Positions 4,976-29,412 of a DNA stretch of 35,405 bases are shown piece after piece. This DNA comes from a virus. Position 1 is the stretch's first letter; each line of letters begins with the position of its first letter. The position numbers were made by a program, and so were the translations under genes. The notes beneath the pieces are model-generated. The model saw only the letters and a program-made list of their open reading frames with translations, did no database searches and was not told the origin of the DNA. The DNA lies in IMG/VR virus record IMGVR_UViG_3300035145_004312, positions 1 to 35,405 of that record; one strand, written 5' to 3'.

Positions 4976-4976
4976 A

Positions 4977-6285: not shown

Positions 6286-6296
6286 CCAATATTCTC

Positions 6297-6644: not shown

Positions 6645-6645
6645 A

Positions 6646-9061: not shown

Positions 9062-9093
9062 ATACTAATGGATAGTTTAAAATATTCCACAAA

Positions 9094-10353: not shown

Positions 10354-11071
10354 TTTTAGTTTTGTTTAATTTTCCAATTATAAATTTTAAAATTTCACTT
10401 CTTTTAATGTCAGATTCGTTAAAAGTAAAACAATTTATACCTTGGCTTTGACTTTCGGAATCATTAAATATTTTTATCATGTCTCCAAATCCACTCCTAC
10501 CATTAATATCGCTTTGCATGAGATCTCCACAAATAAAGACCTTACAGTTTTCGCCTATTCTAGTTATAAAGGTAGTTAACTCTTTAAATGTTGCATTCTG
10601 GGCTTCATCTAATATGACTATTTTATCTTTCCAGCTAACCCCTCTTAAGAAATTTATAGGCATAGCTTCGATTCTACCACTATCTATTAAATCATTTTTA
10701 CTTGTATTACTTTCTGGTAATATTTCGTTTAACTTTTCAATCAGTGGAATCATGTATGGATTAAATTTTTCATTAAGATCACCAGGTAAGGCACCGAGCC
10801 CTTTTTCGGCACTTTCTATTATGGTTCTAACATAAATTAAATCTAAATCTCTATCTTGAGACAACAACCTTAAGGCAGTATATACTGAAATAAAAGTCTT
10901 AGAGCTGCCAGCTGGGCCAGATACAAAAGTTATCTTAGATTCTTTTTTGTTGCAAAGAGAAAAGAATTTTTTCTGTTTCTCTGTGAAACTTACGTTATTT
11001 AATCTAAAATTATCCAAATGCTGCTGCATAGATAAAACTTGATTATTTTTATTTTTTTTTCTTGATGTCAT
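10340..11071 (-). CDS. phoH: PhoH-family P-loop ATPase
   Basis: The 243-residue protein has a Walker A loop GPAGSSKT (residues 52-59) and a Walker B strand [11 protein letters not shown]. It also has the family motif that includes [17 protein letters not shown] and [10 protein letters not shown]. This is the single PhoH core without an N-terminal PIN domain, the form usual in marine phages. PhoH-like proteins are ATPases with proposed RNA-related roles, and their phage function is not settled. Walker A has Ser-Ser where most relatives have Thr-Gly before the Lys. The gene follows the J-domain gene after four bases and overlaps the subtilase start by 14. The leader is A/T only. Confidence 0.95.
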
Positions 11072-11075
11072 TATG

Positions 11076-11627
11076 TTATTTATTTTTTAGGTTTTCTAAA
11101 ATGCTTTTCATTATAAATGATCTTCCTGAGCTTGGCTCATAATACCATTTAAAATAAATAGAATTTAAAATATTCTCTATATCTAATTTAATTTTGCCCA
11201 ACTCTTCTTCTAATTTTATTATTTCAGAAAAAGATATTTCACCTTTGTTAATTTTATTTTTATTTAATTCTTCGTAAAATTCATTTAAACAACCTTTGTT
11301 CTTTGCTTTTGATATTTTCTGAAAGGAGTTGTTTACAGGATTACATGATAAATCTGGATGTGTTAATTTAGCTGCATTTCTGTACTTTTCTTTCATCTCG
11401 TCAGACTCAAAGAAGGAACTCTTTTCTTTTTTTTTATTGGAATTAAGTTCTGAAAAAGGGTCTTTTATATTTTCATCAATACATGCTTTTTGGAAAGCGG
11501 GGTAAAATTCTATCCATACACAATCAAACAAATCATTTAATTCTTTTAATTCTTTTGTTAGAGATCTCCATTTGGATCTAAGTCTATTAAATTCTCGATT
11601 AATAGAAGGGTTAGTTTTTAAATTCAT
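11076..11627 (-). CDS. J-domain (DnaJ-like) protein
   Basis: Residues 74-125 carry a J-domain core: EMKEKYRNAAKLTHPDL with His90-Pro91-Asp92, the motif that stimulates DnaK ATPase, followed by FQKISKAKN in the expected helix. The N-terminal 70 residues are a helical, charged region. The C-terminus (EEELGKIKLDIENILNSIYFKWYYEP) is a second helical region. No Gly/Phe or zinc-finger regions are present, so it is a stand-alone J protein that would bring host DnaK to phage clients. It is the first gene of the long leftward array, with its promoter expected in the 54-nt divergent gap to the GT61 gene. Confidence 0.82.
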   Translation of the reverse strand: MNLKTNPSINREFNRLRSKWRSLTKELKELNDLFDCVWIEFYPAFQKACIDENIKDPFSELNSNKKKEKSSFFESDEMKEKYRNAAKLTHPDLSCNPVNNSFQKISKAKNKGCLNEFYEELNKNKINKGEISFSEIIKLEEELGKIKLDIENILNSIYFKWYYEPSSGRSFIMKSILENLKNK

Positions 11628-11681: not shown

Positions 11682-12725
11682 ATGAAAATTATAAGTAAAA
11701 ATAAAGATGATTTAATAGAAAAAAATCAATGTAAATCTTCATCAATAGCCATGAAGAAATGGCCTCCCTCCTTAGACTGTATAGATATCCCAGATGGAAC
11801 TGCTATCGAAGCTTTTAATTTTAAAGGAAGAGAAGGCCCAGCCGTTACGTTTAATGTGGCCAATAAATTTTCAACAAAAAACAGAAAGGGTATAGAATAT
11901 GCCTTTGAGGTTGAAAAAGTTTATATACATAATATGTCTTTTTCGGACACTCATTGTCACTGTTTAATTGATATATTGCCCAAAATACATGAAATTGATG
12001 AAAGCGGAGAGTACGACAAAATCATTTTAGCCACCAGCGATATTATGATGAGAATCATAAGATCTTTTAAGATAGAATTTAAGAATGTAATTTTTTTACA
12101 AAAAAGAAGCCTAATATTTAGTGCAAAAAAAATATATTTTGCCAATGGAGTTCTTAGTCTTTACAGAAAAAAAGAAAATACTTTGTGGATGAAAAAACAA
12201 ATAGATATTTTTTTAAAAAACAGGCCAATTCCATCTAGAAAAAAGTTTATTTATTGCACTAGGAATTCTGGGGGAGGAGCTTCTCACGGAAGGAAATTAA
12301 GCAACAAAGATGAACAATCAATACAGAATATTTCAAGAAAATTTTGTATGGATAACGATCTAGAATTTGTAGTGTTTGACGGAACTAGAAACGATGGAGA
12401 AAGAATGAACCCAGCTCAGCAAGCTTTTTTATTCCACTCGGCAAAAGTAGTAGTTGGTATTCATGGGGGGGCTATGGTTAATGTAATTAATATACCTGAG
12501 GGAAACAAGGCCTCTGTCTGCGAATTCACAAGCGGAAACGGAACTAATGTTCAAGGAGTTAGTGGGTTTGGCAAAAATTACAATAAGTTATTAGCATATG
12601 TCCCAGAAGATAATTTAGACTATTACTTAATTCCTTACGAAGAGGGCTCTGACAATAAAATTATTAAAATAAATTTTGAAAACTACAAAGAATTTCTAAA
12701 AAAGATTGAAACCTCTATAAACTAG
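11682..12725 (+). CDS. Glycosyltransferase family 61 (DUF563/EOGT-like)
   Basis: The 347-residue protein shows the two features that mark GT61. A middle motif, SDTHCHCLIDILPKI, matches the family pattern of a His/aromatic turn before Asp-x-x-Pro. A late motif, VVGIHGGAMVNVINIPEG, matches GxHGAxLxNxxFxPxG. GT61 enzymes include plant xylosyl/arabinosyl transferases and animal EOGT and transfer sugars to glycans or proteins; the donor is not predictable here. No signal or membrane helix is visible, so action in the host cytoplasm is expected. It opens the rightward glycan cassette and is followed directly by a small gene. The start follows ACACAATAA with no Shine-Dalgarno. Confidence 0.88.
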   Translation: MKIISKNKDDLIEKNQCKSSSIAMKKWPPSLDCIDIPDGTAIEAFNFKGREGPAVTFNVANKFSTKNRKGIEYAFEVEKVYIHNMSFSDTHCHCLIDILPKIHEIDESGEYDKIILATSDIMMRIIRSFKIEFKNVIFLQKRSLIFSAKKIYFANGVLSLYRKKENTLWMKKQIDIFLKNRPIPSRKKFIYCTRNSGGGASHGRKLSNKDEQSIQNISRKFCMDNDLEFVVFDGTRNDGERMNPAQQAFLFHSAKVVVGIHGGAMVNVINIPEGNKASVCEFTSGNGTNVQGVSGFGKNYNKLLAYVPEDNLDYYLIPYEEGSDNKIIKINFENYKEFLKKIETSIN

Positions 12726-12929
12726 ATGAAGAACTGTGGGGATATTAAAGATATATGCGAGGAGTACTGTGAAGATTGTGTTATTAGGTCCTCAAAGGAG
12801 GTTGCGGCACTTATAGAGTGTAAGTACTTAGAAGATTTAGAAAAAAGACTGAACGCTCATTTCTGGATATTAACAAAAAAGAAAAAGAAGTACTTTTTAT
12901 GCTATGTTGTTTTTTCTAGCCTTTTTTGA
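12726..12929 (+). CDS. Small Cys-rich hypothetical protein
   Basis: The 67-residue frame begins with ATG immediately after the TAG of the GT61 gene, so it would be read by coupled re-initiation. The first 33 residues hold five Cys (at positions 4, 11, 15, 18 and 33), possibly a small metal-binding or disulfide unit. Next come a helical stretch (CKYLEDLEKRLNAHFWIL), a Lys-rich patch and a hydrophobic end (FLCYVVFSSLF). The last 33 nt overlap the converging lipoprotein gene. The overlap and short length leave doubt about the C-terminal part. No function is recognised. Confidence 0.45.
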   Translation: MKNCGDIKDICEEYCEDCVIRSSKEVAALIECKYLEDLEKRLNAHFWILTKKKKKYFLCYVVFSSLF

Positions 12930-13157
12930 AGAAAGGAAAAGAATCAATAAACATACAAGTAAAGTCGAGCCAATAATACCAACGAAAGCATAAGAAGTTG
13001 AATTTGAATAAACGGTAGGTGGCTCATCTATTACATTAGCTTTGTCAGCGACGATAGACATAGAAATAGGATCCCTGTCCTTAATTTGACTGCTTTTAGG
13101 TTTTACAGAACATGAGCACAAAAAAAAGAATAAAAAAAATATTGTTAAAGATTTCAT
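12897..13157 (-). CDS. Small lipoprotein with C-terminal membrane helix (candidate unimolecular spanin)
   Basis: The 86-residue product has a lipoprotein signal: Lys2, a Phe/Leu-rich core, and lipobox Leu13-Cys14-Ser15-Cys16. Ser at +2 predicts outer-membrane sorting. After a polar stretch of about 40 residues comes a membrane helix at residues 57-76 and a basic cytoplasmic tail (KKARKNN). A lipid anchor at one end and a membrane helix at the other is the architecture of u-spanins such as T1 gp11, which fuse inner and outer membranes at lysis. The linker is short for spanning the periplasm, which is a weakness of this call. The gene is alone on the minus strand, with TATAAT in its leader and rightward genes on both sides. 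Confidence 0.6.
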   Translation of the reverse strand: MKSLTIFFLFFFLCSCSVKPKSSQIKDRDPISMSIVADKANVIDEPPTVYSNSTSYAFVGIIGSTLLVCLLILFLSSKKARKNNIA

Positions 13158-13193
13158 TGATAGTATTATAGATAATAATTAATAAAAATCAAT

Positions 13194-15824
13194 ATGGCTA
13201 GACTAAAATCTCAAAACGACCTTTGCATCTTCTTTGTTGTAACCGAAGATGAAATCAATAAAGGGCAATTTGAGGCATGCATGTATAAATATTTAGATAT
13301 TTTGCCTTCAAAAGAATATAAATGTGATTTTTTTATTTTTATAAACAAAATGTTCTCTAGAAAAAAAATAGACCGAATAAACGAATGGTTAACTAGAGAA
13401 AGGTTTGTGAAATCGGTATCTTTTATAAATTTATCCCTAACCGAGGAAGAAGATTGCTTTTGGTATCCATGGGCTTTTAGCGAAAAAATAAAACCTTTGA
13501 AAAAACCAGATATGGGTTATACAGCAGGCGCCAATCTATTGTTTTATAGGGCAATCGACACAATGCTAGAAAGTAGCTACAAAAACTTTTTGATGCTAGA
13601 GTGCGACACTAGACCTCTTAAGAAATATTGGTTTGATGAAATTAGAAACTTTTCTATAAAAGAAAAATTCGAAATAGCTGGCAGCACCTACAAGGGGTCC
13701 GCATCTTGGCATTCAGATTCGGAATACAAAGATCACATAAACGGAGTTGCTATATACAAAAACTCAAAAAGAACAAAAATTTTAATAAACTCAAGCTCCA
13801 GAGCGGTAGTTGAGTGTTGCAAAAAAGAGGACTACTTAAATTTTGATGTCGCTAATTTAATAGCAAAGAATCAGTCAAGGAGGAAAGATCCTTATATATT
13901 AAAAGATTCTGGGTTTATTGTAAATTACAGCGATCCAGCAGATTTAGAAATACAAGACAAAGAAATTTTAAATAAACACAAAAATGCAGTTATAGTACAT
14001 CAAAAAAATAAAAAATACATACCTATATTAGACCCAGCTATATTCGATAAAGATTACGAAAAGAGTATTCCTGTGTTTTTTTGTAAGCCAAAGTGCGCTA
14101 CAGAATATACCATATCAGCCAATAAAATGTTCCTGGATTCGTACTGTTCAAAGACAAAAAATAATCCAGCGGTTTTAAAATGCATAACAAGCGAAGGTTC
14201 TAAATTAATTCTTTTTTGCGAAGCTATTAAGCAATTTAATTCTTTGCCAAAAACTTTATTTAAAGAAACTATCGGTGATAATTATTATTTAGATCCACCG
14301 ATATTACATAACTTAATTTTAAATAATTATGTAAATGTATTTAGTATGTGTATTGATTTTAGATTTAGTGTTAATAATGTAGACGAATCTCTTTTTTATA
14401 TATTTAATTCAATCCTAGATAGGTTAAAGGTGAATCCTTTTATTTACTCTTTCAATAGGGATCCATTCTGTATACTGAAATCAAGTTTTCCCGCTTGGGA
14501 AATCGTAAACTTTAAAGATATAAAATGTGACCCCCAGGAAAAAAGAAGAAGATTCAATTTATTTAGCACTTTATTTCCGTCTTCATTTTTTCAGAAAAAA
14601 TTAATTGGATCCAATTATTCAGGGAAAGAAGATCAAAAAAACCATTTTTTTACATTAATGGAAACATTTAATATATTTGACGTTTCTTTGGTCGATGAGA
14701 GTTTAGATAAAATTTTTAATCATTTTTATAATTTATCTATATGGGAACTGCCGAATATAAATCAAAACATTAACCCTACAAAAAATATATATAACATAGA
14801 TAAAACCACTTTTTTAAAAGCTAAAGTGGTTCAAGATGTATGGGTGCAAAGATCAAAAGAAGACCTCCAAATATATAAAGAATTTACTGTAAACTCAATA
14901 GAAAGCGACATGGATAAAATGAAGAAGATGGCAAAAAAAATAAATTATTCAAACAAAAATATCCCAGTATTTTTTCATATACCTAAAAATGCTGGAACTT
15001 TTGTAATAGCTACCATGAATAAATATTTCATGAGAACATTGGGAGTAAAACAAGAAGACTTTAATTTACAAAGATTAGGTGTGAGAACGACAACGGGTCA
15101 TGAAATTAAAATTTTTGTTTACTTTAAGGACGAGTCGTGGAAAAAGGATAAGGATATTCATGTGTTAGATAAATTTGGGCCAATGGTAAGAGCTAGAAAC
15201 TGTAGCCTAGAAACTTTTTCAAGATATTTATATAGAGATCAAATTAAATTATTAGCCTGTGTGGTAGAGCCTGTAGGTGATGTATTAGACTTGAGGCCAT
15301 CTTTTAATGCATTATGGGATATTTTAGAAAAAGCAGAAAGAAACCCAGTAAATTTCTGTTTAGTTCGAAACCCTTACGATAGAGCTTCTTCTATTTACAA
15401 TTATCTTTCTTCAGAAGAATCTTCTCATGAAAAAACTCATGGAGCATTTGATCATCTTAAAGATTTTAGGGAATTTATTAAATCCCCCCAAATGGAAGAC
15501 AGTTGGTTAATTAGAGCTCTAACGGGAGCTCCATCAGGGAATCAATTAAACCGCAGATGGACCGAAAATGCTAAAGATTTTTTAGAAAAAAATAATTTCT
15601 TAATAGAAGATATTAAAAACTCAAAATCTTTATTGGCTGAAGTTTTGTCTTATTGCTTTGAAAACGAGTTAATGGATATAGACGCAAAAAATATAAACGC
15701 CAATAAGAGCGAATATAAAAAAGAGAAGGTTAAATTTTCTGACTTAAAAATAGAAGAAAGAGATTGTTTTAGGGACAGAGCAAAATGGGATATTAAATTA
15801 TATCAAGATTTGGTTGAATTTTAA
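13194..15824 (+). CDS. Glycosyltransferase-sulfotransferase fusion with two sulfotransferase-like domains
   Basis: The 876-residue protein has three parts. Residues 1-290 look like a GT-A-type glycosyltransferase, with FLMLECDTRPLKKYW near residue 135 as the DxD-like metal/nucleotide site and a following His-rich acceptor region. Residues 590-876 are a sulfotransferase: FFHIPKNAGTF (Lys about 597), a TTTGHE motif, and CLVRNPYDRASS (Arg about 724). The end DIKLYQDLVEF is usual for the family. Residues 295-560 look like a second, diverged copy: IPVFFCKPKCATEY in place of IPVFFHIPKNAGTF, SFNRDPFCILKS in place of LVRNPYDRASS, and a matching end DLQIYKEF. The single chain could add a sugar and sulfate it. 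It is followed after 24 nt by two more glycosyltransferase-like genes. Confidence 0.75.
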   Translation: MARLKSQNDLCIFFVVTEDEINKGQFEACMYKYLDILPSKEYKCDFFIFINKMFSRKKIDRINEWLTRERFVKSVSFINLSLTEEEDCFWYPWAFSEKIKPLKKPDMGYTAGANLLFYRAIDTMLESSYKNFLMLECDTRPLKKYWFDEIRNFSIKEKFEIAGSTYKGSASWHSDSEYKDHINGVAIYKNSKRTKILINSSSRAVVECCKKEDYLNFDVANLIAKNQSRRKDPYILKDSGFIVNYSDPADLEIQDKEILNKHKNAVIVHQKNKKYIPILDPAIFDKDYEKSIPVFFCKPKCATEYTISANKMFLDSYCSKTKNNPAVLKCITSEGSKLILFCEAIKQFNSLPKTLFKETIGDNYYLDPPILHNLILNNYVNVFSMCIDFRFSVNNVDESLFYIFNSILDRLKVNPFIYSFNRDPFCILKSSFPAWEIVNFKDIKCDPQEKRRRFNLFSTLFPSSFFQKKLIGSNYSGKEDQKNHFFTLMETFNIFDVSLVDESLDKIFNHFYNLSIWELPNINQNINPTKNIYNIDKTTFLKAKVVQDVWVQRSKEDLQIYKEFTVNSIESDMDKMKKMAKKINYSNKNIPVFFHIPKNAGTFVIATMNKYFMRTLGVKQEDFNLQRLGVRTTTGHEIKIFVYFKDESWKKDKDIHVLDKFGPMVRARNCSLETFSRYLYRDQIKLLACVVEPVGDVLDLRPSFNALWDILEKAERNPVNFCLVRNPYDRASSIYNYLSSEESSHEKTHGAFDHLKDFREFIKSPQMEDSWLIRALTGAPSGNQLNRRWTENAKDFLEKNNFLIEDIKNSKSLLAEVLSYCFENELMDIDAKNINANKSEYKKEKVKFSDLKIEERDCFRDRAKWDIKLYQDLVEF

Positions 15825-15848
15825 AAAAATAAAAATATATTATAAGTA

Positions 15849-16511
15849 ATGAAAGTTATACATTATTATCCATCAGTATATACAATGTTCAAGCAAATGG
15901 CTGAAAAAAGCCTAACTGACTCAAGTTTCATATTGCAATCTAAAGAATTAGAGGATTACGAAAAAACCAAAGGGGGAAAAGTAGAATTAGACCCAGAAAT
16001 AAAATTATCACAATTGGTTTTGGATATAGAAAAAAACATAGGAAGCAACATAATCTACATAGACCCAAGTGTATTCATAAACCCTGGGAATGTTAGAGGT
16101 TTTTATAAATACATGTTAAACTTTAAGGATGTTGATCTATGCATGGCTACTCATATAAAGAGAAAAGGTTACTCTACCGCATTAATGAAAATTAAATGCA
16201 CAAAGAAAACACTAGCTTTCTTTGATCATGCACTATCAAGAGTACAGAAAAATTCTGCAGAATCTGAAGAGCCAGTTTTCAATAATATGTTGAAAGAATG
16301 GGAGGGTAGAATTACTTTTGAAGGTTTAAACTCAAAGGTGTGCTGCACTCCATTTATAACAAGCGATGCTATACGAACAAATTATTATGCATGGCATGTA
16401 ATGTCAAGAGCGGAAGGGTTTACTACTACTAAATTATACGATAGTAAAGTAAAAATAGTATTCGACCATAGATTTATAAATAGAGAAGATTACAATTATT
16501 ATAAATTGTAA
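15849..16511 (+). CDS. Putative glycosyltransferase (GT-A-like)
   Basis: The 220-residue protein has NIIYIDPSVFINPGN at about residues 69-83. This resembles the strand-Asp-x-x turn (IxYxDxDxxI) that holds the metal-nucleotide sugar in GT-A enzymes, but the second Asp is Ser. Downstream, DLCMATHIKRKGYSTALMKIKCTKKTLAFFDHAL follows the order seen in many small glycosyltransferases, with an acceptor segment and then a helix. EPVFNNML resembles the later DQ(D/E)-type block. The family is not certain. The leader ATTATAAGTA has no Shine-Dalgarno. Context supports the call: it lies between the GT-sulfotransferase fusion and another glycosyltransferase-like gene, three bases before the latter. Confidence 0.5.
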   Translation: MKVIHYYPSVYTMFKQMAEKSLTDSSFILQSKELEDYEKTKGGKVELDPEIKLSQLVLDIEKNIGSNIIYIDPSVFINPGNVRGFYKYMLNFKDVDLCMATHIKRKGYSTALMKIKCTKKTLAFFDHALSRVQKNSAESEEPVFNNMLKEWEGRITFEGLNSKVCCTPFITSDAIRTNYYAWHVMSRAEGFTTTKLYDSKVKIVFDHRFINREDYNYYKL

Positions 16512-16514
16512 AAA

Positions 16515-17288
16515 ATGAAAATATATACATTTTTCGAGCCTTCAGAGTCCACACATAGCAAAGAAAACCAGTTAAGGCTCCTTTCTTTATGGAGAGACAA
16601 CTGGGTGGACAAAGGTTGGGAGCCTGTTGTATTAAATAACGATTATGCTGAAGCTCACCCTTTTTACGAAGAATTTGTAAAGAGGATGAAGTCTTTACAT
16701 GTTTTATTCACAGGTCAAAAGTTAAAAGATTACGGCATTTATTGTTATACTAGGTGGCTTGCATATGCAATGCTAGAATCAAGTGAAACAATTTATACAT
16801 GCGATTATGATTTAATCAATAATAATTTGAAACCTACTATGGTTAAAAGCAATCCAGGAATACATTTAATGTCAGAATATTGCCCATGTTTTGTATCTGG
16901 AACATCTTCAGAGTTCCTAGCTTTTGCGAAATTCTTTTTATATATTTCAGAGTTAAGATATCCTTTTTTGAGGGGTAATATAAAAACAATATCAGGTATG
17001 GCGTCTCCAATATATCATGACCAAGATGTTCTAGTTAATAACTTATCTAATATGTATTCCCCAAGCGGACCAATGCTGGCAGTAGATTTAAACTTCAGAT
17101 TGTCAACAAATTTAGTTGGACAGATGGCCAGCAAAAGAATTTACGAAGATTTTGTTTTCAAGAAAAAACTTCCAAAAACCCTTCACTTTTCAAGAAACAG
17201 CATGGTAAGGTTTAAAAAAGATCTGTCTGCTGGAAACATGGATGATGATGTTTTAAGATGTAATATCATTGAAGAAAAATTTAGATAA
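16515..17288 (+). CDS. Putative glycosyltransferase (GT-A-like, DxD motif)
   Basis: The 257-residue protein begins MKIYTFFEP, then a segment (LLSLWRDNWVDKGWEPVVLNNDYA) typical of glycosyltransferases that address a list of sugars or residues. YTCDYDLINN at about residue 95 is the DxD site after the helix RWLAYAMLE, an arrangement common in small bacterial and viral GT-A enzymes. HDQDVLVNNL at about residue 173 resembles the later Asp-Gln-Asp block. LHFSRNSM near the end fits the final His/Ser turn. Sugar and acceptor are unknown. It is the last gene of the glycan cassette. A gap of 27 nt containing the GTGTA motif separates it from the first giant adhesin gene. Confidence 0.65.
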   Translation: MKIYTFFEPSESTHSKENQLRLLSLWRDNWVDKGWEPVVLNNDYAEAHPFYEEFVKRMKSLHVLFTGQKLKDYGIYCYTRWLAYAMLESSETIYTCDYDLINNNLKPTMVKSNPGIHLMSEYCPCFVSGTSSEFLAFAKFFLYISELRYPFLRGNIKTISGMASPIYHDQDVLVNNLSNMYSPSGPMLAVDLNFRLSTNLVGQMASKRIYEDFVFKKKLPKTLHFSRNSMVRFKKDLSAGNMDDDVLRCNIIEEKFR

Positions 17289-17301
17289 ATTAAATTTGCT
17301 T

Positions 17302-17310
17302 GTGTAATTT
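17302..17310 (+). promoter_or_regulatory. GTGTAATTT promoter-like motif before the first adhesin gene
   Basis: GTGTAATTT starts 14 nt before the ATG at 17316, inside a 27-nt gap, and is preceded by AAATTT. The same nine bases occur on the minus strand before the J-domain gene. If TAATTT is a -10 element the transcript would begin near the start codon. Confidence 0.45.
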
Positions 17311-17315
17311 AATAC

Positions 17316-19892
17316 ATGGCAGAAATTAGAACAAATTCAGAGTTCACAATAAAAACAGTAGCTGATACTGAATATGTAGCTATACCTTTGGGGAAACCAG
17401 AGTATTTTGGAGACATAAAGAGATTCAGGATTCAAGTGGAATGGGGTGATGGCTCCACAGATTATCTTGTGAACGATTATGATAACAAAGCCATAGCTTG
17501 GGATAGAAATCCATCATCGTCTGGCGAGCCTCAAAACGATGCTCCAGTTTCGGATTTCCCAGTAATACCAAGGCATCATTATTCTTCGCCAGGACAATAT
17601 ACAATAAAAATAAAAGGAGGCTTTGGAGACTCTTGGGGCAGGGCAGATAATAGAGACATGCGCAGCTTGAAGTTTGCGTTTGCAAAATCGGATGACAGGC
17701 TTTGCTTAGGTACACCAGATAGATTTGAAGAAATTTCAGGAGGGGACATACTTGTTCATGGCCAAGGAGATTTTGAAGATTGGGAAAATCTAAAAGCAAT
17801 AAATGCAAACCTAATAAGGTTGACTTCTTTAAATCCAATAAATAATTTATTGTACGACACGACTGCTGAGGCGAAATTAGCTTTTATAAATACTTTTAAA
17901 AATTGCAAAAATTTAAAACAGGTAAAAGGCGATGCAATAAAATATTTAGCTAATGACGGCGGAAGAACGGATCCTGCCGTAGAGAGGCTTATATCGGCAG
18001 AAGGATGTTTTGATAATTGCGGTTACGAAGGGGATATAAAATGGAATTTTAACGCAGTTACAAGCTATAAAAATACATTCAGAAAATCAAAAATAAAATA
18101 TCCAATAAATTTAAATTTTAATAATGTTACTAATCTAGACTATGCATTTGAAGATTCTCTTATTGGGACAGCTATAACTACAAAACAGGAAGTTCAAACT
18201 CAAATATTAGACACTTGGGCTTATTGGAAATTTGTTTTAGTAAACTCAGCCAGTCAAGTCTTGTGGAGTAATGACGGGAGCTTGGAGGTAGGAGCTAGCT
18301 TATCTGAACCCCAATCGTCCACACAAGTAAAAACTTCAGCGGAGGGATTATTATCGGCTCCTTTAGGAAATACAGCTAGACCTTTTTACATGAACCCATT
18401 AAGTCTTGATGATGTCATCGATAAAGAAAATCATGAAAATAACTTTGTAACAGGAATCAAGTTAATTACTTATCATTCGGCAACCGCAGGTGGAACTTTT
18501 ACTAAAATTGACGAAAAAAATATTAATCTTGATAATTTCTTACCCCTACAAAAGTTTACAAGATGGGATCATGCTGTCACAGCAGTAGGAGCGTTTAAAG
18601 ATCATAAGGCCCTAACAATACCGATAGCTCAATCAATTTTTGCGCAGAAAAGAGGTAGGAATGTACCGCTAAGCCCAATCAAAAATTTAGATGCTTTATT
18701 TGAGGGAGTTAGATTTTTAAAGACAGACACTGCTGATATCATTAAAATCGCTCATGTAAGACCAACTTCTACATCTAGATTCTTAAGGGGAGCCAAGAAT
18801 ACAAAAGAATTGATAATGAATGTCACAGAGACCATAAATGCATCTTCTATGTTTGAGGATAGTGACTACTCATATAAAATGCCAATTAGAGGAGGGTGGA
18901 GCTTTCTGAAATGTACCGATGCATCATATATGTTTGCTGGATGCACCAAATCTCCAGGAATAACTTCATTATGGTATAAAACCTCAAGAAGTGATAATAG
19001 AGATTTTTCGCCAGTTAATGTGGAAGGAATGTTTGCAAGAAGTACTGGATGGGCGGCGGACTTAAATTTGGACTGGCGACATTTAAAGCCAACTAATATG
19101 AAAGCTATGTTTAAAAATAGCACTTTTAATGGTTCGCTCAAATTAGGCACAACAGAAAATTGTACAGATATTTCTTATATTTTTTATGAGTCAAGTTTTG
19201 TCAATACAGATTCAAACATAGAAAACTGGAAATTAAACAATGTGGTAGATGCCAGTTATGCTTTTTATGGTTCAAATGCTCCTTTCAAATTAAACCTCTG
19301 GTTCGCTCCTCGCACTGGCATAGATTTTAAAATAAAAATCATAGATGGAATGTTTTCAGAATCAACAATGGTACCAACACTTGAATCTAGAAGTGGAAGT
19401 TGGCGAAAAACCGTGATTAAAACCGTAACTAGCGCAAAAGCTGTATTTAAAGGAAATAAGTCAATAAATCCCAAGGCATATTCAAGCTTATTTCAGAATA
19501 ATATAATTGAAGGAAATTACCAACATGGAGAGCCTGTTCTAGAAAACATAGATGAGTTTTTTATGAACACAAATTTTCCTGTAGATCAGCATAAGGGCAG
19601 GGAAATGGAAAGATTTAAAGAATGGGCTCTACATCCTTCGATAGAATGCGGAAATCAAGTGAATGTTTTCAAGGGTACTCCGTTTGACAGAGAATTCACC
19701 AACAAGCTTTGCAGGCCTCAAAGTTGTTTGTCTGACGAGGATGTAACATCGCCCCCAGAGATTGAAACAAGCTCAACATATTCCGCAAGCGAAGATACAT
19801 ATTTATGCGCTCCAGAGGAAGAGGAAGGCGAAAACGAAGAAGAACCTGAAATCGGAACTGGCGAATTTGATACAGTCTATATATCAGTTTAA
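17316..19892 (+). CDS. Large surface/fibre protein with PKD-like and BspA/DUF285-type repeats
   Basis: The 858-residue protein starts with a PKD-like beta domain: VEWGDGSTDYL at about residue 42, closed by HHYSSPGQYTIKIKG at about residue 95. From about residue 180 to 770 there are degenerate repeats of the BspA/DUF285 leucine-rich type, each with a short helix such as ASSMFEDS, ASYMFAGC, VEGMFARS, MKAMFKNS, ASYAFYGS or IDGMFSES, followed by a strand. The end is acidic and low in complexity (EEEEGENEEEPEIG). These modules are typical of adhesins, and in phages of fibres or virion decorations that bind host glycans. No signal peptide is present, as expected for a virion protein. It shares its architecture with the next gene, three bases away, and follows the glycan cassette. 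Confidence 0.75.
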   Translation: MAEIRTNSEFTIKTVADTEYVAIPLGKPEYFGDIKRFRIQVEWGDGSTDYLVNDYDNKAIAWDRNPSSSGEPQNDAPVSDFPVIPRHHYSSPGQYTIKIKGGFGDSWGRADNRDMRSLKFAFAKSDDRLCLGTPDRFEEISGGDILVHGQGDFEDWENLKAINANLIRLTSLNPINNLLYDTTAEAKLAFINTFKNCKNLKQVKGDAIKYLANDGGRTDPAVERLISAEGCFDNCGYEGDIKWNFNAVTSYKNTFRKSKIKYPINLNFNNVTNLDYAFEDSLIGTAITTKQEVQTQILDTWAYWKFVLVNSASQVLWSNDGSLEVGASLSEPQSSTQVKTSAEGLLSAPLGNTARPFYMNPLSLDDVIDKENHENNFVTGIKLITYHSATAGGTFTKIDEKNINLDNFLPLQKFTRWDHAVTAVGAFKDHKALTIPIAQSIFAQKRGRNVPLSPIKNLDALFEGVRFLKTDTADIIKIAHVRPTSTSRFLRGAKNTKELIMNVTETINASSMFEDSDYSYKMPIRGGWSFLKCTDASYMFAGCTKSPGITSLWYKTSRSDNRDFSPVNVEGMFARSTGWAADLNLDWRHLKPTNMKAMFKNSTFNGSLKLGTTENCTDISYIFYESSFVNTDSNIENWKLNNVVDASYAFYGSNAPFKLNLWFAPRTGIDFKIKIIDGMFSESTMVPTLESRSGSWRKTVIKTVTSAKAVFKGNKSINPKAYSSLFQNNIIEGNYQHGEPVLENIDEFFMNTNFPVDQHKGREMERFKEWALHPSIECGNQVNVFKGTPFDREFTNKLCRPQSCLSDEDVTSPPEIETSSTYSASEDTYLCAPEEEEGENEEEPEIGTGEFDTVYISV

Positions 19893-19895
19893 AAC

Positions 19896-22800
19896 ATGAA
19901 TCACGAAAATATATTAAATCAAGCCTCTAAATTATTAAAGGGGTTTAACTTCAAATCAATGTCTTTGGGAAAAGGAATAAACCAAGAAACAGGAGAAGAA
20001 AAAACTACAATCTGTGTTTCTGTTGAAAAGTTATACAAAGATCTCCCAAACACAATAGAAATCGAAGGAGAAGAATATCCCATAGATCAAAGGGTATCAA
20101 AATTCCAGTTTTTAAATGGAGAAATGTCATGGCCTACTAGCAAGCCCGAAGGAGAGCGGTTGCAAAAATGGAGAACCATACCCGCAGGCCTAAGGGGAAT
20201 GATTTTTGAAAACGATTGTGCTCAAGACGATGGTTCGGCAAATAGAGAAAAAATAAGACCAATAAAATGTGGAAGTGCTATCACCACCGACAAAGAGAAC
20301 TACGGAACTTTAGGGTGTTTGGCTATAGATAAGCAAGATGGAAAACTAGTGGGTGTTACTAATGCACACGTAGTTGCTAAAAATTTCTTGATTTCTTCTG
20401 AATTGAATGACAAGATTTCACCAAGTTCTGTTGCTGATACTCCAGTTTACCAGGGAAATATAGAAAACATTGCAACCCTAGGAAGCGATGATGTCATAGG
20501 AACCGTAAAAAGGTATTTCCCAATTGGAGTCCCATATAAAACCAATCATTGGCACTCAGTGGATAAAGATCAATTTCAAATTGATGCAGCTTTAATAGCT
20601 TTAAGTAAAGATGTTGTTGATGCTAATTCTTGGCAATTGGTAGGCATAGATAATTCAACTTTTAACTCTCCCGTAACTTCATATTTGGATTACGAACAAT
20701 TTTTAAGCTGGTTATACGATAGCTATTGGGGTTCTTATGGCTCTGAAGTAGGCGGTGGTAAGGATGAATTTGGGACACCCCAAGAATCTTTAATGCTAAC
20801 CTCTGGAGCTAGAACAGGAGCTAAAGATGGAGACAAAGAATTAGGAGATAAAAGCTGGAGGTGGAGAATAATTGGACCTTACAAATTCCAGGAAGTTGGT
20901 TTTGACGATGGAGCAGGAAATCCAATAATTAAATTGGCGAGAGAGAATGTAGCAATTGCAAGACAAGAAAATGTCGATAGGTACAAAGGAGTTGATGGTG
21001 CCGTAGCAAGGGGAGATTGGTATTGTGCAAATAGTACTGGGCCTGGTGATTCTGGGTCTGTATTATATTCTTATTTTAACAATAAATGGTCTATAGTTGG
21101 TATTATATACGCAGCTCAAACTGCCGATAATGGAATTGCTCAAGAAGCTCTACTAATTCCATTTTACTTAGTTGCAGAAATAATGGGTATAGAGCCATGG
21201 GATGGAACAATATCAGATGATATTTTTTATGAAGAAGAAAATGGCAGACCCAAGTGCGAATTAATTTATACCAGAGGCAAAAATCCAACATACAAGCACA
21301 CAAAAAGTACAGACGGAGGTAACAAATATTTCTATCAAGCGGGTACTGTAGAAAGACAGGGAAATAGGGTTTACGAAGAAGTTCAAGAATCTTTTCTGCA
21401 AGGTGGAGATACGATCATCCCAGTAAATGCAAATATATCTAGTTTTGTTTCTTATGATGATATCAATATAGATATACCTACAGAAGGATCATGGGACCCC
21501 AGCATTACAGACTATGACTCTGATCCAATTTGGTTTAACTTCAAAAATCTAAATATATTAAACGACAATTTGCCAAATGATGTAAAAAATCCTCAAGGTG
21601 ATGTCGCTATGACTTTAGATATAGCAGTAGTTGCTGGAGAACAATTCGGTGAATTAGATGGATTTTATTTTGACAAGGAAAATAGATCTAAATATATTTA
21701 TGCATCAAAACCTATAGTTGAATTTTACGGTAACGGAGTCTCTGACTCTTCATCGAGAGCAGAGACTAATGCATTATCAAAAATAAAGAGCTTACTGGGC
21801 GGTGGTAAAGGAGGTTCGGCAAACGGGCTTAAGTTTGCTGATTTGAGTAAGACTAGGTTTAAAAGAGGGGCAAAAGGTTCCGTTTTGCCAATAATAGGCT
21901 CAGAAATAAATATTAATAATGCAAACTGTTTTACCGAATATATACCCTGGGAAACTATCGATGGATTTACAAAAGGAGCAGCAAAAACAAATCCACCATC
22001 TTTAGAAGAATGGATTAAGACGGGAGCTAAACTTTGTTTAGTTTTAACTTACATAGGTAAGGACAACGAATATGTTATAGACAAATTGGCAGTAAAAGAT
22101 TTGACTGCAGGAGGGTTAGGTCAATTTCCACTCCTGGAAGATGAGGCAGTTGATGATGATGTCGTTGGAGATCCAATTTTTAAATTCGGAATAGACACAA
22201 ACCTATCAGCCACACTAGACTCTTTTGGGGGGCACGATTTTCTTGAAGCTGGTGGAATGAGCGTATTAACAGGCTTTGATGATTTATTTAAATCAGACAT
22301 ATATAAAAGAACTATTGTTTTACCAATTTTAGAAACTGGAGAATCTCCAGTGACTATAGACTGGGGAGACGGAAGCCCTGTAACGACAATACCAGCTAAC
22401 TTTAATTTTAATAATTCGTCTCAAAACTCTGACGGAGGATCCATAGAAATGCTGAGGATTTTTAGGAAAGTGATTGCTTATTTGGAGGGATATAACGATC
22501 CTGAGACCTATTTTGATTACGAAAACGAGCCGACTTTAGCCTTAGCGCACAGGTATGCAGCTCAAGGAGCAAAAACGATAACTATAAGTGGTCCAGTAAA
22601 AAAGTTTGGGCACCTTGGCATGTACGATAGATACATTAAAGATGGAGTAGATGTGCATAGAAGAAATAGGACTACTTCTGGGCATTTTGGAAATTACTTT
22701 CGAGAAGGAGGGTTGGATCATGGCAACTTCGTGTTGTATTCAATGTTATTTTCCTCTAAAGTCAGGAGGATAGATAAATTTCCAACATGGCCTAAATGCG

Positions 22801-24899
22801 AATGGTACTATGCATTTATACTTTCAAATATTCAGTTTTGGAACACAAAAAGCAAATTTGCTGGTTTTAAATGTATTGGGGCATTTGTTTCTCATATTAA
22901 AAACCAAAGAACTAGGCAGTGGGTGTCCGCAGGATTTTCTTCATGGTTTTGTAAAGCTGGGCCATTTGATAATTGGGAGTTTCCCAATTTCTATGATGAA
23001 GATTTGCCCCATGCAAAAGGTAGAAAATACAATAATACGGATGGGGGGCTTGAGGTTTTCACCAGAACACAATCTCTTTATGATGATTTTAAAGGTGTTT
23101 GGATTCCAGGGCTAACAGAAGGATCAGGTATAGATAATATCTGGGGAGATTATTGGCGGAACAACACGTTCTCTTTGCCAGATACTTTTTTTAATGAGCA
23201 TGGTCCTGCTCGGATGTGGGTAGCTTACGATGGTGGTGCTAACACTCACCAATTAGATCCTTTGACTGATAATAGGGGTTTTATAGAGTACTATACAATT
23301 TCTCAAATACTTTTTAATGATGATGTTGTTTTTAATGCTGATCCAACAAGTTCTGCAAAAATAACTCAAGACCGATTTTATCAGAAAATTTATGATAGTG
23401 TTAAAGAGAATGGTCATAAAATGATTCTTAAAAATTCTGTAGACTTGTCTAGTCTTGAGACTACAAAATTCGATTTCTATAAAATGACCCCTTATTCGAA
23501 TGAAATTACACAAAGAACACTGCAATGGATTTCTGGAGATAGCACTATTGTTGACAGTTCTGCGACTGTAACTATAGGAGCTAAATATCTAGATAATTAC
23601 AAGGCAATAAAAAAGATAGTTGATTCGGGGGCTAAAGTAGCAATAACAGAAGCTATAGAATCATTAGATGACTTTTTTAGAGATGAAGTTGTATCCTCAA
23701 AAGATATAAATTTTTTGAAAAATAATGTAAAATTGGCTAATACATGCTCTTTTAATAGAACATTTATGGGCGCAGAACTTCGAGGAGATATTGATATATC
23801 TCAATTAGTTTTAGCTGGCGGAAAATTAAGGGAAATGTTTAGGGATGTAAAAGGGTCGAACTCAACAATAACCATTGGCGAAATAGTAAACCCAATATCA
23901 GTAGAGTCTTTCTTACAAAACGCAAGCATTAAGAATATATCAGGAATTGATAAATTAACTCTTTCAGAAACTTCTGTTTTTAACAACTTATTTTACAATG
24001 CTAATATAGGAACCTCCTTAACTAATATAGGATTATGGAACATATCAGAATCAAGTATTTTTACTTTAATATCCGAAAAAGCATTGAACCTTAAAAATGG
24101 ATCCGAAAACAGGCCTAATGCATTTTTACTTGCAAGCTCTTCGGTGGGAGAAATAACCTTACCTGAAAACTTGTCTTTTATAGATGAGATCGTTGATTAT
24201 TTTAGGGTCCATGCTAGGTTGAGGCACGAGCATAACGATAGTCCATGGGGAGTGAGATTTGGGAAAGGAGTGAGCTATCAAAGTCAATTTGCTAGATCCG
24301 ACGAATACGACGATCATCATATCACTAACCCCGATTTCTCCAAACCAGGAAAGTATGCTTTTTTAATCGATAGCGGCGACCACCTCCAATATAAATTGGA
24401 TAATCTTAATGGAATGTGGAAATATTCTGATTGGCATATGGAATATGATTTAGGCTTGTACGAATCTGATAGCGGTTGGTTTAGCAAAACTAAATATAAT
24501 GAAGAGACAGGGTTGACTGATCATACCGAAGTAACGGACCCAAATTTATTCAAAAAATATCGAGTAGGCTATGGGAAATATGACTGGACATTAAATGCCG
24601 TCAACAGTGTTTACCCAGATCAACTTAAGCAATGGTGGAGGAACACGTCTATAGGTGTAGCATCGGGAATAGGTTTAGGGACTAGTTACTGGGCTATAAT
24701 AGATATAAACAAAGAAAAATACACATCCACAGATATCCATATAAAATTCAAACCCGATCCTTATATTACAAACAGACACGGGCTTGAAACAAAAGCTGAG
24801 ATGCCAGATAAGATTGAAGCATTCCTTTGGTTTCCTAATTGGAACGGCGGATACGATTGGGCTCCTAGGGGTTTATTGTGGCAACAAAAGAATCCGTAG
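19896..24899 (+). CDS. Giant surface/fibre protein with trypsin-like protease domain, PKD-like and DUF285-type repeats
   Basis: The 1667-residue protein is the largest in the window. Residues 110-430 form a chymotrypsin-fold protease with His158 (TNAHVV), Asp230 (QIDAALIAL) and Ser386 (GPGDSGS), followed by WSIVGIIYAAQ as the S1 site strand. Residues 430-800 are beta-rich and unrecognised. TIDWGDGSPVTTI at about residue 825 starts a PKD-like domain, closed by LAHRYAAQGAKTITISG. Diverged DUF285-type repeats follow from about 950 to 1440 (TCSFNRTFMGAE, GGKLREMFRDV). The last 200 residues are rich in Trp, Tyr and His and may form a terminal binding domain. The protease could mature virion proteins or cut host surface proteins on entry. 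The start follows GTTTAAAAC without a Shine-Dalgarno and is coupled to the previous gene. Confidence 0.8.
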   Translation: MNHENILNQASKLLKGFNFKSMSLGKGINQETGEEKTTICVSVEKLYKDLPNTIEIEGEEYPIDQRVSKFQFLNGEMSWPTSKPEGERLQKWRTIPAGLRGMIFENDCAQDDGSANREKIRPIKCGSAITTDKENYGTLGCLAIDKQDGKLVGVTNAHVVAKNFLISSELNDKISPSSVADTPVYQGNIENIATLGSDDVIGTVKRYFPIGVPYKTNHWHSVDKDQFQIDAALIALSKDVVDANSWQLVGIDNSTFNSPVTSYLDYEQFLSWLYDSYWGSYGSEVGGGKDEFGTPQESLMLTSGARTGAKDGDKELGDKSWRWRIIGPYKFQEVGFDDGAGNPIIKLARENVAIARQENVDRYKGVDGAVARGDWYCANSTGPGDSGSVLYSYFNNKWSIVGIIYAAQTADNGIAQEALLIPFYLVAEIMGIEPWDGTISDDIFYEEENGRPKCELIYTRGKNPTYKHTKSTDGGNKYFYQAGTVERQGNRVYEEVQESFLQGGDTIIPVNANISSFVSYDDINIDIPTEGSWDPSITDYDSDPIWFNFKNLNILNDNLPNDVKNPQGDVAMTLDIAVVAGEQFGELDGFYFDKENRSKYIYASKPIVEFYGNGVSDSSSRAETNALSKIKSLLGGGKGGSANGLKFADLSKTRFKRGAKGSVLPIIGSEININNANCFTEYIPWETIDGFTKGAAKTNPPSLEEWIKTGAKLCLVLTYIGKDNEYVIDKLAVKDLTAGGLGQFPLLEDEAVDDDVVGDPIFKFGIDTNLSATLDSFGGHDFLEAGGMSVLTGFDDLFKSDIYKRTIVLPILETGESPVTIDWGDGSPVTTIPANFNFNNSSQNSDGGSIEMLRIFRKVIAYLEGYNDPETYFDYENEPTLALAHRYAAQGAKTITISGPVKKFGHLGMYDRYIKDGVDVHRRNRTTSGHFGNYFREGGLDHGNFVLYSMLFSSKVRRIDKFPTWPKCEWYYAFILSNIQFWNTKSKFAGFKCIGAFVSHIKNQRTRQWVSAGFSSWFCKAGPFDNWEFPNFYDEDLPHAKGRKYNNTDGGLEVFTRTQSLYDDFKGVWIPGLTEGSGIDNIWGDYWRNNTFSLPDTFFNEHGPARMWVAYDGGANTHQLDPLTDNRGFIEYYTISQILFNDDVVFNADPTSSAKITQDRFYQKIYDSVKENGHKMILKNSVDLSSLETTKFDFYKMTPYSNEITQRTLQWISGDSTIVDSSATVTIGAKYLDNYKAIKKIVDSGAKVAITEAIESLDDFFRDEVVSSKDINFLKNNVKLANTCSFNRTFMGAELRGDIDISQLVLAGGKLREMFRDVKGSNSTITIGEIVNPISVESFLQNASIKNISGIDKLTLSETSVFNNLFYNANIGTSLTNIGLWNISESSIFTLISEKALNLKNGSENRPNAFLLASSSVGEITLPENLSFIDEIVDYFRVHARLRHEHNDSPWGVRFGKGVSYQSQFARSDEYDDHHITNPDFSKPGKYAFLIDSGDHLQYKLDNLNGMWKYSDWHMEYDLGLYESDSGWFSKTKYNEETGLTDHTEVTDPNLFKKYRVGYGKYDWTLNAVNSVYPDQLKQWWRNTSIGVASGIGLGTSYWAIIDINKEKYTSTDIHIKFKPDPYITNRHGLETKAEMPDKIEAFLWFPNWNGGYDWAPRGLLWQQKNP

Positions 24900-24968: not shown

Positions 24969-26999
24969 GTGAGCAAAAGAAAATATACAAAAAAATCTGC
25001 ATATTGGAATAAATTCTCTTCAATTGGAAAATCAAAACAAGATACGTCTGTCAGTAAAGATATAGATATAAAACCAGCATTTGCTGGAGATAATTATTAT
25101 GTAGCTAATGCATCTTCATTAGGAGGCTCTAATTCAGTGAGCACAAAAAGAAGAGGAAACTCGATATCTTTTTCTCCTAAAAACAATAGATTTTCTAACA
25201 TTAGACAAGGCACACTTCCTTATACACCAGGTGCAGACGGAGTTAATGTAAGAGATGCCATAGAGCTCTGCCAGAAAGCTTATGCCAATGTTCCTATATT
25301 CAGAAACGCTATAGATATAATGGCAGAATTGGCTAATTCTAATATATGTGTAGAGGGAGGGAATGATGTTTCCAAGAAATTTATAGAAAAATGGTTTTCT
25401 AAAATAAATTTATGGGCCTTAAAAGATCAATTTTTCAGAGAATATTACAGAAGCGGAAATGTTTTCATGTATAGACTCGATGGAAAATTTTCAGCAGAAG
25501 ATTTTGCTAAACTAAATAAAATTTATGGATCCGATAATATAAAAGAAGGCTATATACCCATTAGATACGTACTGCTTAATCCATATGATATTGTTGCAAA
25601 TAGAGCTACATCTTTTAGAGGAAATGCTTATAAAAAAATATTATCAGAGTATGAGTTGGAAAAATTACAGAACCCAAAAACTCAAGAAGATAAAGAAATA
25701 TTTAATTCTTTACCCGAAGATGTTAAAAAAAAGATAAAAACAGGCGGTTGGAGTGGAGATGGAGTTTCGATGGATTTGGACTCCTCTAAATTGATACATG
25801 CATTTTATAAAAAACAAGACTACGAACCTTTTGCTATACCGTTCGGGTTTCCAGTTTTAGACGACATTAACTGGAAGATGGAACTTAAAAAAGTAGACCA
25901 AGCAATAAGCAGAACTATAGAAAATGTTATTTTATTAATAACTATGGGGACTGATCCCGATAAAGGCGGTATAAATCCTAATAATTTGAATGCAATGCAA
26001 TCTCTTTTTCAGAACGAAAGTGTTGGAAGAGTTTTAGTTTCTGATTACACAACAAAAGCAGAATTTATATTACCAGATATAAGCAAAGTAATTGGCCCAG
26101 AAAAATATAAGATAGTAAATGAAGACATAACTCAGGGGTTGCAAAATGTTATTGTCGGAGATGAAAAATACAAGAACACACAAGTTAAAGCAGAAATTTT
26201 CCTAGAAAGATTAAAGGAAGCTAGACAATCTTTTATGCATAATTTTCTTCAGCCTCAGATTAAAGCAGTATGTAGATCTATGGGTTTCAAAGTCTATCCA
26301 ACTGCAAAATTTGAAGAGATAGATATTAAAGATGAAGTTCAGTTACAAAGAGTAGTCACTAGACTAATAGAAATGGGAATATTAACTCCAGAACAAGGTG
26401 TTAAGGCAATCAAAACTGGAATATATCCCGAAGAGTCTGAAATAGAAAAGGCTCAAACTCATTATATAGAAAAAAGAAAAGAGGGTATGTATAACCCATT
26501 AGTAGGAGGATTACCTATGGTTGATGTAGATGGAGATGGACAAGTTGATACTGTTCCCAGTTCAAGTGAAGAAGAAAGTTCTCCAAAACCTTCAAGCAAA
26601 ACTCCGACACCAAAAGGCTCAGGAAGACCAGTGGGAAGACCCAGAGGAACTACTGGAATACCAAGAACAGTAAATGCTGTCGAACAGGAAATATACTCAA
26701 GGAAAGATATACAGAAAATAATATACAAAACTCAAGAACTAGAAGATCATATTAAAAAATCTTTCGCCAAAAAAATAAATAAAGATTTAAATGAAAGCCA
26801 TTTAGCTATTTGTGAAGAGCTGACTAAAAGTATAGTTTTAGCAAAAGAATCGAATCAGTGGAAAAGATGCGCTAATTCTTGTATTAAAGATCATTCAAAG
26901 ATAGAAAATTTACCTGTGCTAAAAGATATATTAGATATTTCACAGGAAAAAGAGCTGGAAATTTATCCAGCCTCACTACTTTATCACAGCAAAAAATAA
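24969..26999 (+). CDS. Portal protein
   Basis: The 676-residue protein fits the portal family. RDAIELCQKAYANVPIFRNAIDIMAELANS is the usual clip/stem entry with a conserved helix, followed by FFREYYRSGNVFMYR, and later a long helix region (VDQAISRTIENVILL). The portal ring at one capsid vertex is the DNA channel, the terminase dock and the neck attachment site. The C-terminal tail after residue 510 carries a Ca-binding-type loop VDVDGDGQVDT, a Ser/Pro/Lys-rich linker and an AT-hook-like GRPVGRPRG. The start is GTG at 24969-24971. An ATG at 24964 is out of frame and stops at once. It stands behind the promoter motif and before the protease gene, the standard head-gene order. Confidence 0.9.
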   Translation: MSKRKYTKKSAYWNKFSSIGKSKQDTSVSKDIDIKPAFAGDNYYVANASSLGGSNSVSTKRRGNSISFSPKNNRFSNIRQGTLPYTPGADGVNVRDAIELCQKAYANVPIFRNAIDIMAELANSNICVEGGNDVSKKFIEKWFSKINLWALKDQFFREYYRSGNVFMYRLDGKFSAEDFAKLNKIYGSDNIKEGYIPIRYVLLNPYDIVANRATSFRGNAYKKILSEYELEKLQNPKTQEDKEIFNSLPEDVKKKIKTGGWSGDGVSMDLDSSKLIHAFYKKQDYEPFAIPFGFPVLDDINWKMELKKVDQAISRTIENVILLITMGTDPDKGGINPNNLNAMQSLFQNESVGRVLVSDYTTKAEFILPDISKVIGPEKYKIVNEDITQGLQNVIVGDEKYKNTQVKAEIFLERLKEARQSFMHNFLQPQIKAVCRSMGFKVYPTAKFEEIDIKDEVQLQRVVTRLIEMGILTPEQGVKAIKTGIYPEESEIEKAQTHYIEKRKEGMYNPLVGGLPMVDVDGDGQVDTVPSSSEEESSPKPSSKTPTPKGSGRPVGRPRGTTGIPRTVNAVEQEIYSRKDIQKIIYKTQELEDHIKKSFAKKINKDLNESHLAICEELTKSIVLAKESNQWKRCANSCIKDHSKIENLPVLKDILDISQEKELEIYPASLLYHSKK

Positions 27000-27015
27000 A
27001 CTTTAAGTTTTTTTT

Positions 27016-27024
27016 GTGTAATAT
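27016..27024 (+). promoter_or_regulatory. GTGTAATAT promoter-like motif before the prohead protease gene
   Basis: GTGTAATAT lies in the 51-nt gap after the portal gene, preceded by CTTTAAGTTTTTTTT, which resembles the TTTAAGTTT stretch before the portal motif. It begins 35 nt before the ATG at 27051, so here a short leader of roughly 20 nt would be made. Confidence 0.45.
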
Positions 27025-27050
27025 GCTTTGTACCAGTATTTTCAATAACT

Positions 27051-28685: not shown

Positions 28686-28691
28686 TTAATC

Positions 28692-29378: not shown

Positions 29379-29412
29379 GACAGATTAACATTTAACATAG
29401 AAGTTTAAAAAA

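Follow-up and report, generated by a model that had tools for sequence, protein, structure and literature searches.

The 35,405-base record IMGVR_UViG_3300035145_004312, analysed here as a whole and referred to as the window, is a fragment from an uncultured siphovirus-like group and carries a cassette of glycosyltransferase (GT) and sulfotransferase (ST) genes that leads into two giant adhesin-type genes, Ad1 and Ad2 (Table 1). As the initial annotation had claimed, the cassette contains real GT and ST genes, which lie directly 5' of the adhesin-type genes also in relatives, and the coordinates of the open reading frames (ORFs) leave gaps of only 27 and 3 nt before Ad1 and Ad2. We tentatively propose, being somewhat more doubtful than confident, that the cassette represents a lineage-wide cytosolic island for glycan synthesis and sulfation, for which virion proteins are the most likely acceptors and the adhesins one plausible acceptor.

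A single-query search of IMG/VR with Ad2 found no relative. As Ad2 is too divergent for such a search, the relatives were reached through the portal protein, which has more than 150 matches in IMG/VR; loci with relatives of the portal number 80. Among 50,697 phage records, no match was found to the portal, Ad1, the GT61 enzyme or the GT-ST fusion of the window. The closest relative, G002, is a 163 kb record, with portal and capsid proteins 90% and 95% identical to those of the window. In the close clade, glycan islands lie on both flanks of the terminase block, and each clade record that covers these flanks contains at least two matches to PF03567. Stand-alone sulfotransferases number from two to seven per island set in G007, G008, G013, G016 and G018, with seven in G013. 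The islands of the relatives further encode GT61, GT90, GT47-like (exostosin-like), GT4, Core-2 branching and PF03407 enzymes, together with epimerases, GDP-mannose dehydratases and methyltransferases. None of the recognised GT and ST enzymes of the islands possesses a transmembrane (TM)-like stretch; such stretches occur in five of the 124 island ORFs, all of them unassigned, compared to 9-11% genome-wide. In this respect the cassette differs from the Gtr-type serotype conversion cassettes, with their membrane proteins GtrA, GtrB and Gtr.

The GT-ST fusion of the window (876 aa) had been described as a two-domain protein. Both types of domain are indeed predicted in one chain; however, there are three domains: a probable GT-A domain (aa 1-~285), a degenerate sulfotransferase-like domain (~285-580) and a C-terminal sulfotransferase domain (~585-876). 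Pfam, PHROG and NCBIfam provide no identity for this protein at useful E-values, the C-terminal domain has no Pfam match, and two homologues match PF03567 at scores below the cut-off. On the other hand, a hidden Markov model (HMM) of 38 stand-alone sulfotransferases of the clade, built without the fusions, matches the fusion at 3.8e-8. In profile-profile comparisons (hhalign), the C-terminal domain matches the sulfotransferases at 98.3% (E 9e-14) and the middle domain matches the C-terminal one at 98.2% (E 3e-13), whereas the controls (reversed sequences and the GT domain) reach about 0-3%. The C-terminal ~290 residues contain the two motifs for binding of 3'-phosphoadenosine 5'-phosphosulfate (PAPS), namely the 5'-phosphosulfate-binding motif (5'-PSB) HIPKNAGTF and the 3'-phosphate-binding motif (3'-PB) RNPYDRASSIY. 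Five homologues align along the whole length of the fusion, and K598, R725 and S733 are invariant in them. To judge from the loss of the usual motifs, the middle domain may be an inactive copy. LExD is conserved in the GT-A domain.

According to the structure comparison of an AlphaFold model with mean pLDDT of 54, residues 586-876 resemble heparan sulfate 2-O-sulfotransferase (Z 9.6) and 6-O-sulfotransferase (Z 8.7), and residues 1-273 resemble LARGE1, WbbM, a3GalT and GT6/GT8 enzymes at Z 7.6-8.7 (8.5-8.7 for the first three), in a low-confidence model where Z of about 8 can reflect a common arrangement. Such a model would be weak on its own, and its matches are usable because the independent profile evidence agrees with them. 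Profiles of the fusion, of the 16515 product and of Ad2 gave nothing significant against the PDB sequences. Fusions of a sulfotransferase-type domain with the same N-terminal GT-A domain are encoded in G000, G002, G003, G004, G005, G007, G008 and G009; the fusion of G005 has a C-terminal domain like that of the stand-alone enzymes, and that of G008 lacks the PAPS-binding residues. In the island of G007, an exostosin-like GT47 gene and a 2-oxoglutarate (2OG)-Fe(II) oxygenase gene of the prolyl-4-hydroxylase type (L108, 13994-17506) lie near the GT-ST gene. Hydroxyproline-linked glycans were rejected as a general idea, as 2OG oxygenases stand beside the fusion in only one (G007) of 27 records.

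The two further sulfotransferases that had been noticed elsewhere in the window, ST1 and ST2, both exceed the Pfam cut-off of 22 bits for PF03567 (54.6 and 44.9 bits, respectively) and match PHROG 3347 (5.8e-14 and 5.4e-16). ST1 has an ortholog in G002 (58% identical), and ST2, whose homologs adjoin TerL in G002, G003, G004 and G007, contains VPKCGGT and RNPWDRALS, which correspond to the 5'-PSB and 3'-PB of PAPS-dependent sulfotransferases. The GT61 assignment also holds, the match to PF04577 scoring 40.1 bits (cut-off 27), with homologs in G002 (two), G005, G016 and G018. Between the GT61 gene and the fusion lies a gene for a 67-aa protein, which precedes a GT-ST gene in seven of the eight genomes that carry it. 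The 15849 product is 62% identical to its counterpart in G002 and reaches 21.1 bits for PF03407, just below the cut-off of 22. The 16515 product matches no profile in Pfam, PHROG or NCBIfam and contains a conserved DYD motif; its homologs in G002, G008 (two close and two remote) and G009 all stand beside GT or ST genes. The 1861 product, initially labelled fucosyltransferase-like, likewise belongs to no Pfam, PHROG or NCBIfam family, and its homologs in two relatives, G002 and G005, exhibit RxGD and HFGDNE-type motifs.

Of the two giant surface proteins described initially, Ad1 has a match to PF03382 (DUF285) of 54.7 bits against a cut-off of 25 (1.1e-14). Ad2 is a fusion of a protease-like module with a repeat module, which in G002 are separate products of adjacent genes (770 aa for the protease-like protein, 846 aa for the PKD/repeat protein). 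In its N-terminal half NAHV, DAALI and GDSGS are invariant in four sequences, in the order of a His-Asp-Ser triad; this half has no Pfam match, and a chymotrypsin-like serine protease with a trypsin fold is putative, the AlphaFold model of residues 1-770 having been discarded at pLDDT 38. Ad2-type proteins elsewhere reach 2801 aa in L140, including the PKD/repeat module, and at least 4497 aa in an open frame of G005. Neither Ad1 nor Ad2 has a signal peptide or a TM-like stretch. The adhesin genes lie directly before the portal gene or before a small gene, in G002 that of an esterase (L123, 12832-13668; a carbohydrate esterase of the BD-FAE/feruloyl-esterase type). The idea that the adhesins are fibres fares less well: in G002 the tape-measure, minor tail and tail-assembly genes are located 3' of the head genes and those of the lambda-type tail tip also lie away from the adhesins, while Ad1 and Ad2 adjoin the head genes, and the reading as tail fibers is therefore not favored.

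The expectation that cassette and adhesin genes co-occur is borne out in one direction. In all six adhesin-bearing genomes with upstream sequence, to which the count was limited, the nearest co-directional upstream gene encodes a GT or an ST: a GT16515-type enzyme in two, the fusion in two, an ST in G009 and GT61 in G005, where the oppositely oriented g11076 intervenes between GT61 and the adhesins. However, the islands also persist without adhesins, and the linkage is thus real but not exclusive. Between the window and G002, the median identity is 78% for core proteins and 57% for glycan enzymes, and it falls to 41% for Ad1 and to 45% and 34% for the halves of Ad2; adhesins and glycan genes pooled together diverge faster than the core (rank test, one-sided p 4e-5). 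Genes that face diversifying pressure at an interface would be expected to diverge in this way, although the divergence does not indicate which interface this is.

How might such an island operate? As the recognised island enzymes lack TM-like stretches, they would be expected to use PAPS and sugar nucleotides in the cytosol, and for cytosolic enzymes the simplest acceptors would be virion proteins that fold in the same compartment. We infer that soluble GTs of the GT61 and GT-A types and PAPS-dependent sulfotransferases, some of them in one chain, could assemble short glycans with sulfate groups within the infected cell's cytosol and transfer them to virion proteins of the phage. In the branch of the window these would be Ad1 and Ad2 on the head side, which lack signal peptides and directly precede the head genes, as expected of virion proteins; in the adhesin-free relatives another virion protein would take their place. 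Fast-diverging glycans and surface proteins could serve to shield the particle or to tune attachment. It is tantalizing to go further and to suppose that these uncultured phages make a sulfated glycoprotein coat of their own, in which the GT-ST-ST fusion and its satellite enzymes modify the giant virion proteins in the cytosol; we regard this more specific version as unlikely.

Several points weigh against the proposed modification of virion proteins. G007, G008, G013, G016 (180 kb) and G018 carry glycan islands, while their sequence, as far as analysed, includes no gene of the Ad type, and these islands are comparable to or larger than that of the window; the adhesins therefore cannot be the sole acceptor. 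The initial idea that the enzymes are dedicated to the two adhesins is not supported by these five relatives, and the orientation of the terminase block accounts for part of what lies immediately next to the adhesins. The fusion of G007 keeps its PAPS-binding residues in the absence of adhesins; adhesin loss accompanied by sulfotransferase loss was considered and rejected, as G008 lacks these residues but G007 retains them. A portal/protease/capsid tree, with several weakly supported nodes, fits a single gain of the adhesins followed by losses in G007 and G008; the six linkages are hence not independent and possibly reflect one ancestral event. Finally, the proposal is read from genes, with Ad1 and Ad2 as putative structural proteins, and dedicated PAPS synthesis by the phage is putative at most.

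As regards the latter, a fusion of an adenosine 5'-phosphosulfate (APS)-kinase-like domain with a nicotinamide mononucleotide adenylyltransferase (NMNAT)-like domain is encoded in G002, G013, G016 and G042 (PF01583, 42.4 bits vs 21.1). In L091 (14677-15480) the APS-kinase-like domain of this architecture contains LGFSPEDR, as in human PAPSS1. The fusion was not counted as a PAPS synthase, as its score of 37 misses the apsK cut-off of NCBIfam (138.7) and it is also present in Stenotrophomonas/Xanthomonas phages. It is suggestive but ambiguous: it may be a mini-PAPS synthase, while a role in NAD salvage would fit equally well.

Alternatively, the island could alter a surface polysaccharide of the host (capsule, lipopolysaccharide or exopolysaccharide), e.g. 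by sulfation, and thereby block competing phages or the rebinding of progeny to debris. We consider this rather unlikely, but it is a serious rival: it accounts for the persistence of islands in genomes without Ad1 and Ad2, and the epimerases and GDP-mannose dehydratases of the relatives are enzymes of sugar-nucleotide metabolism; moreover, phage GTs that change the host serotype are known from work cited in PMC12619734. The recognised island enzymes include no membrane-anchored GT, flippase or polymerase, unlike the Gtr seroconversion cassettes, although cytosolic enzymes could still use lipid-linked or nucleotide intermediates, and the location of the island beside head genes and giant proteins also speaks against modification of the host.

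It is less probable still that the linkage is incidental, with accessory genes collecting at two permissive sites that flank the terminase block, and enzymes and adhesins functionally unrelated. In the window and in G002, G003, G004, G005, G008 and G009 the terminase block and the portal gene have opposite directions, and in G007, G013, G016 and G018 they are collinear; on this orientation depends which of the glycan islands lies on the portal side, and it may place one site beside the adhesins. The wide variation in island content, the retention of islands in adhesin-free relatives and the possible descent of the adhesin-glycan linkage from one ancestor fit incidental linkage as well. However, the islands consist almost purely of glycan enzymes rather than random cargo, and the class of the upstream neighbour remains constant while its identity changes (GT16515-type, GT-ST, ST or GT61). 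Modification of DNA bases with sugars (and sulfate) for restriction escape, as in the hypermodified T-even DNA, deserves almost no credence, as no nucleotide-hypermodification genes were noticed beside the islands (no systematic search was made), GT61, GT90, GT47-like and PF03567 enzymes modify proteins or polysaccharides, and we know of no precedent for sulfated DNA; phage GTs acting on DNA are nonetheless well known (Pyle et al. 2024, as cited in PMC12619734).

The C-terminal domain of the fusion resembles heparan sulfate 2-O- and 6-O-sulfotransferases in its fold (in the low-confidence model, pLDDT 54) and in its 5'-PSB and 3'-PB motifs; however, it forms one chain with a probable GT-A domain and a degenerate copy of the ST domain, and it is soluble, with no membrane anchor. 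ST1 and ST2 are members of PHROG 3347. Stenotrophomonas phage DLP6 carries one annotated relative, a single gene between replication genes, while here we see multi-gene islands with GTs and the fusion. The OM43 phages possess a single Sulfotransfer_3 gene, from a Pfam family different from PF03567. Ad1 is similar to the DUF285/BspA-type repeat surface proteins in its PF03382 match, but it is phage-borne, lacks a secretion signal and lies near the portal. In the chlorovirus PBCV-1, a virion protein is modified in the cytoplasm by soluble GTs and sugar enzymes that the virus itself encodes; this is a eukaryotic virus, and we know of no sulfotransferases in it. To our knowledge, no sulfation has been reported for the glycosylated virions of mycobacteriophages either, and a sulfated glycan on a bacteriophage particle would, if true, be the first. 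That mycobacteriophages glycosylate their own virions is established (Freeman et al. 2023, as cited in PMC12619734), and phage GTs that decorate capsid and tail proteins would act alike here, although these phages belong to another group. The Moraphages (PMC12619734) were rejected as members of the same lineage, for they have contractile tails, in contrast to the lambda-type tail module found here. Phage genomes were already known to contain sulfotransferases, listed as auxiliary genes whose function is called unclear (PMC10580990). Precedents exist both for single sulfotransferases and for GTs in phages; what is new is the density of sulfotransferases and the GT-ST-ST fusion, and we found no description of this fusion or of sulfotransferase-rich glycan islands in the open-access literature.

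Table 1. Features of the window (ORF 19896-24899, encoding Ad2, is given as two halves).
Feature	Coordinates	Strand	Basis
ST1, stand-alone sulfotransferase	31..573	+	PF03567; PHROG 3347 galactose-3-O-sulfotransferase
tmRNA, phage-encoded	593-1035	+	Rfam RF00023, 108 bits; tag AREEYDNLVQFEQAEELEMVA
Putative fucosyltransferase-like enzyme	1861..2502	-	homologs in G002, G005; motifs
ST2, stand-alone sulfotransferase adjoining TerL	2508..3104	-	PF03567; PHROG 3347
Terminase block: TerL, ERCC4 nuclease, thermonuclease, sigma-like, subtilisin-like, PhoH, g11076	3101..11627	-	PHROG matches
GT61 glycosyltransferase	11682..12725	+	PF04577
Small conserved 67-aa protein	12726..12929	+	HMM members in 12 records; alignment; gene order
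Spanin-like small antisense ORF	12897-13157	-	lipoprotein-type N-terminus, C-terminal TM stretch
GT-ST-ST fusion, 876 aa	13194..15824	+	HMM, profile-profile and structure comparison
Putative nucleotide-diphospho-sugar transferase	15849..16511	+	sub-threshold PF03407; G002 homolog
Putative glycosyltransferase	16515..17288	+	DYD motif; recurs in glycan islands
Ad1, with DUF285 repeats and, by eye, a PKD-like stretch at the N-terminus	17316..19892	+	PF03382
Ad2 N-terminal half, protease-like module	19896..22205	+	separate gene in G002; H158, D230, S386 (GDSGS)
Ad2 C-terminal half, PKD-like (WGDGS) and repeat module	22206..24899	+	separate gene in G002
Head module: portal, protease/scaffold-like, 228-aa protein, major capsid protein	24969..30459	+	mainly gene order and conservation

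Among the remaining features of the window, the portal has a weak match to PHROG 3753, and the naming of portal, protease and capsid follows mainly from gene order and conservation. ARAGORN detects no tmRNA in the 163 kb G002; that of G016 has a tag unlike the one in the window. The subtilisin-like protease of the terminase block (9094-10353, minus strand; PHROG 3677, 4e-74) is conserved in G002, G005 and G013; in addition to a TM stretch at the C-terminus, it contains a long linker of PE-dipeptide repeats, encoded by 18-nt tandem repeats. The small antisense ORF 12897-13157, with the N-terminus FFLCSCS, is conserved in G002, G003, G004 and G009; its resemblance to a unimolecular spanin would suggest a diderm host. 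Assignment of the host from bins of metagenome-assembled genomes was abandoned, as the relatives fall in bins of several phyla. Promoter and terminator scans revealed no enrichment compared to shuffled sequences.

This clade gathers many phage sulfotransferases in one context, that of multi-enzyme glycan islands that include a three-domain fusion and that, in one branch, lie next to surface proteins which diverge fast. The question of what phage sulfotransferases sulfate thereby becomes directly testable with few genes. If the virions are indeed sulfated, they would bear a strong negative charge and a likeness to the sulfated polysaccharides of the marine environment, with consequences for attachment and shielding.

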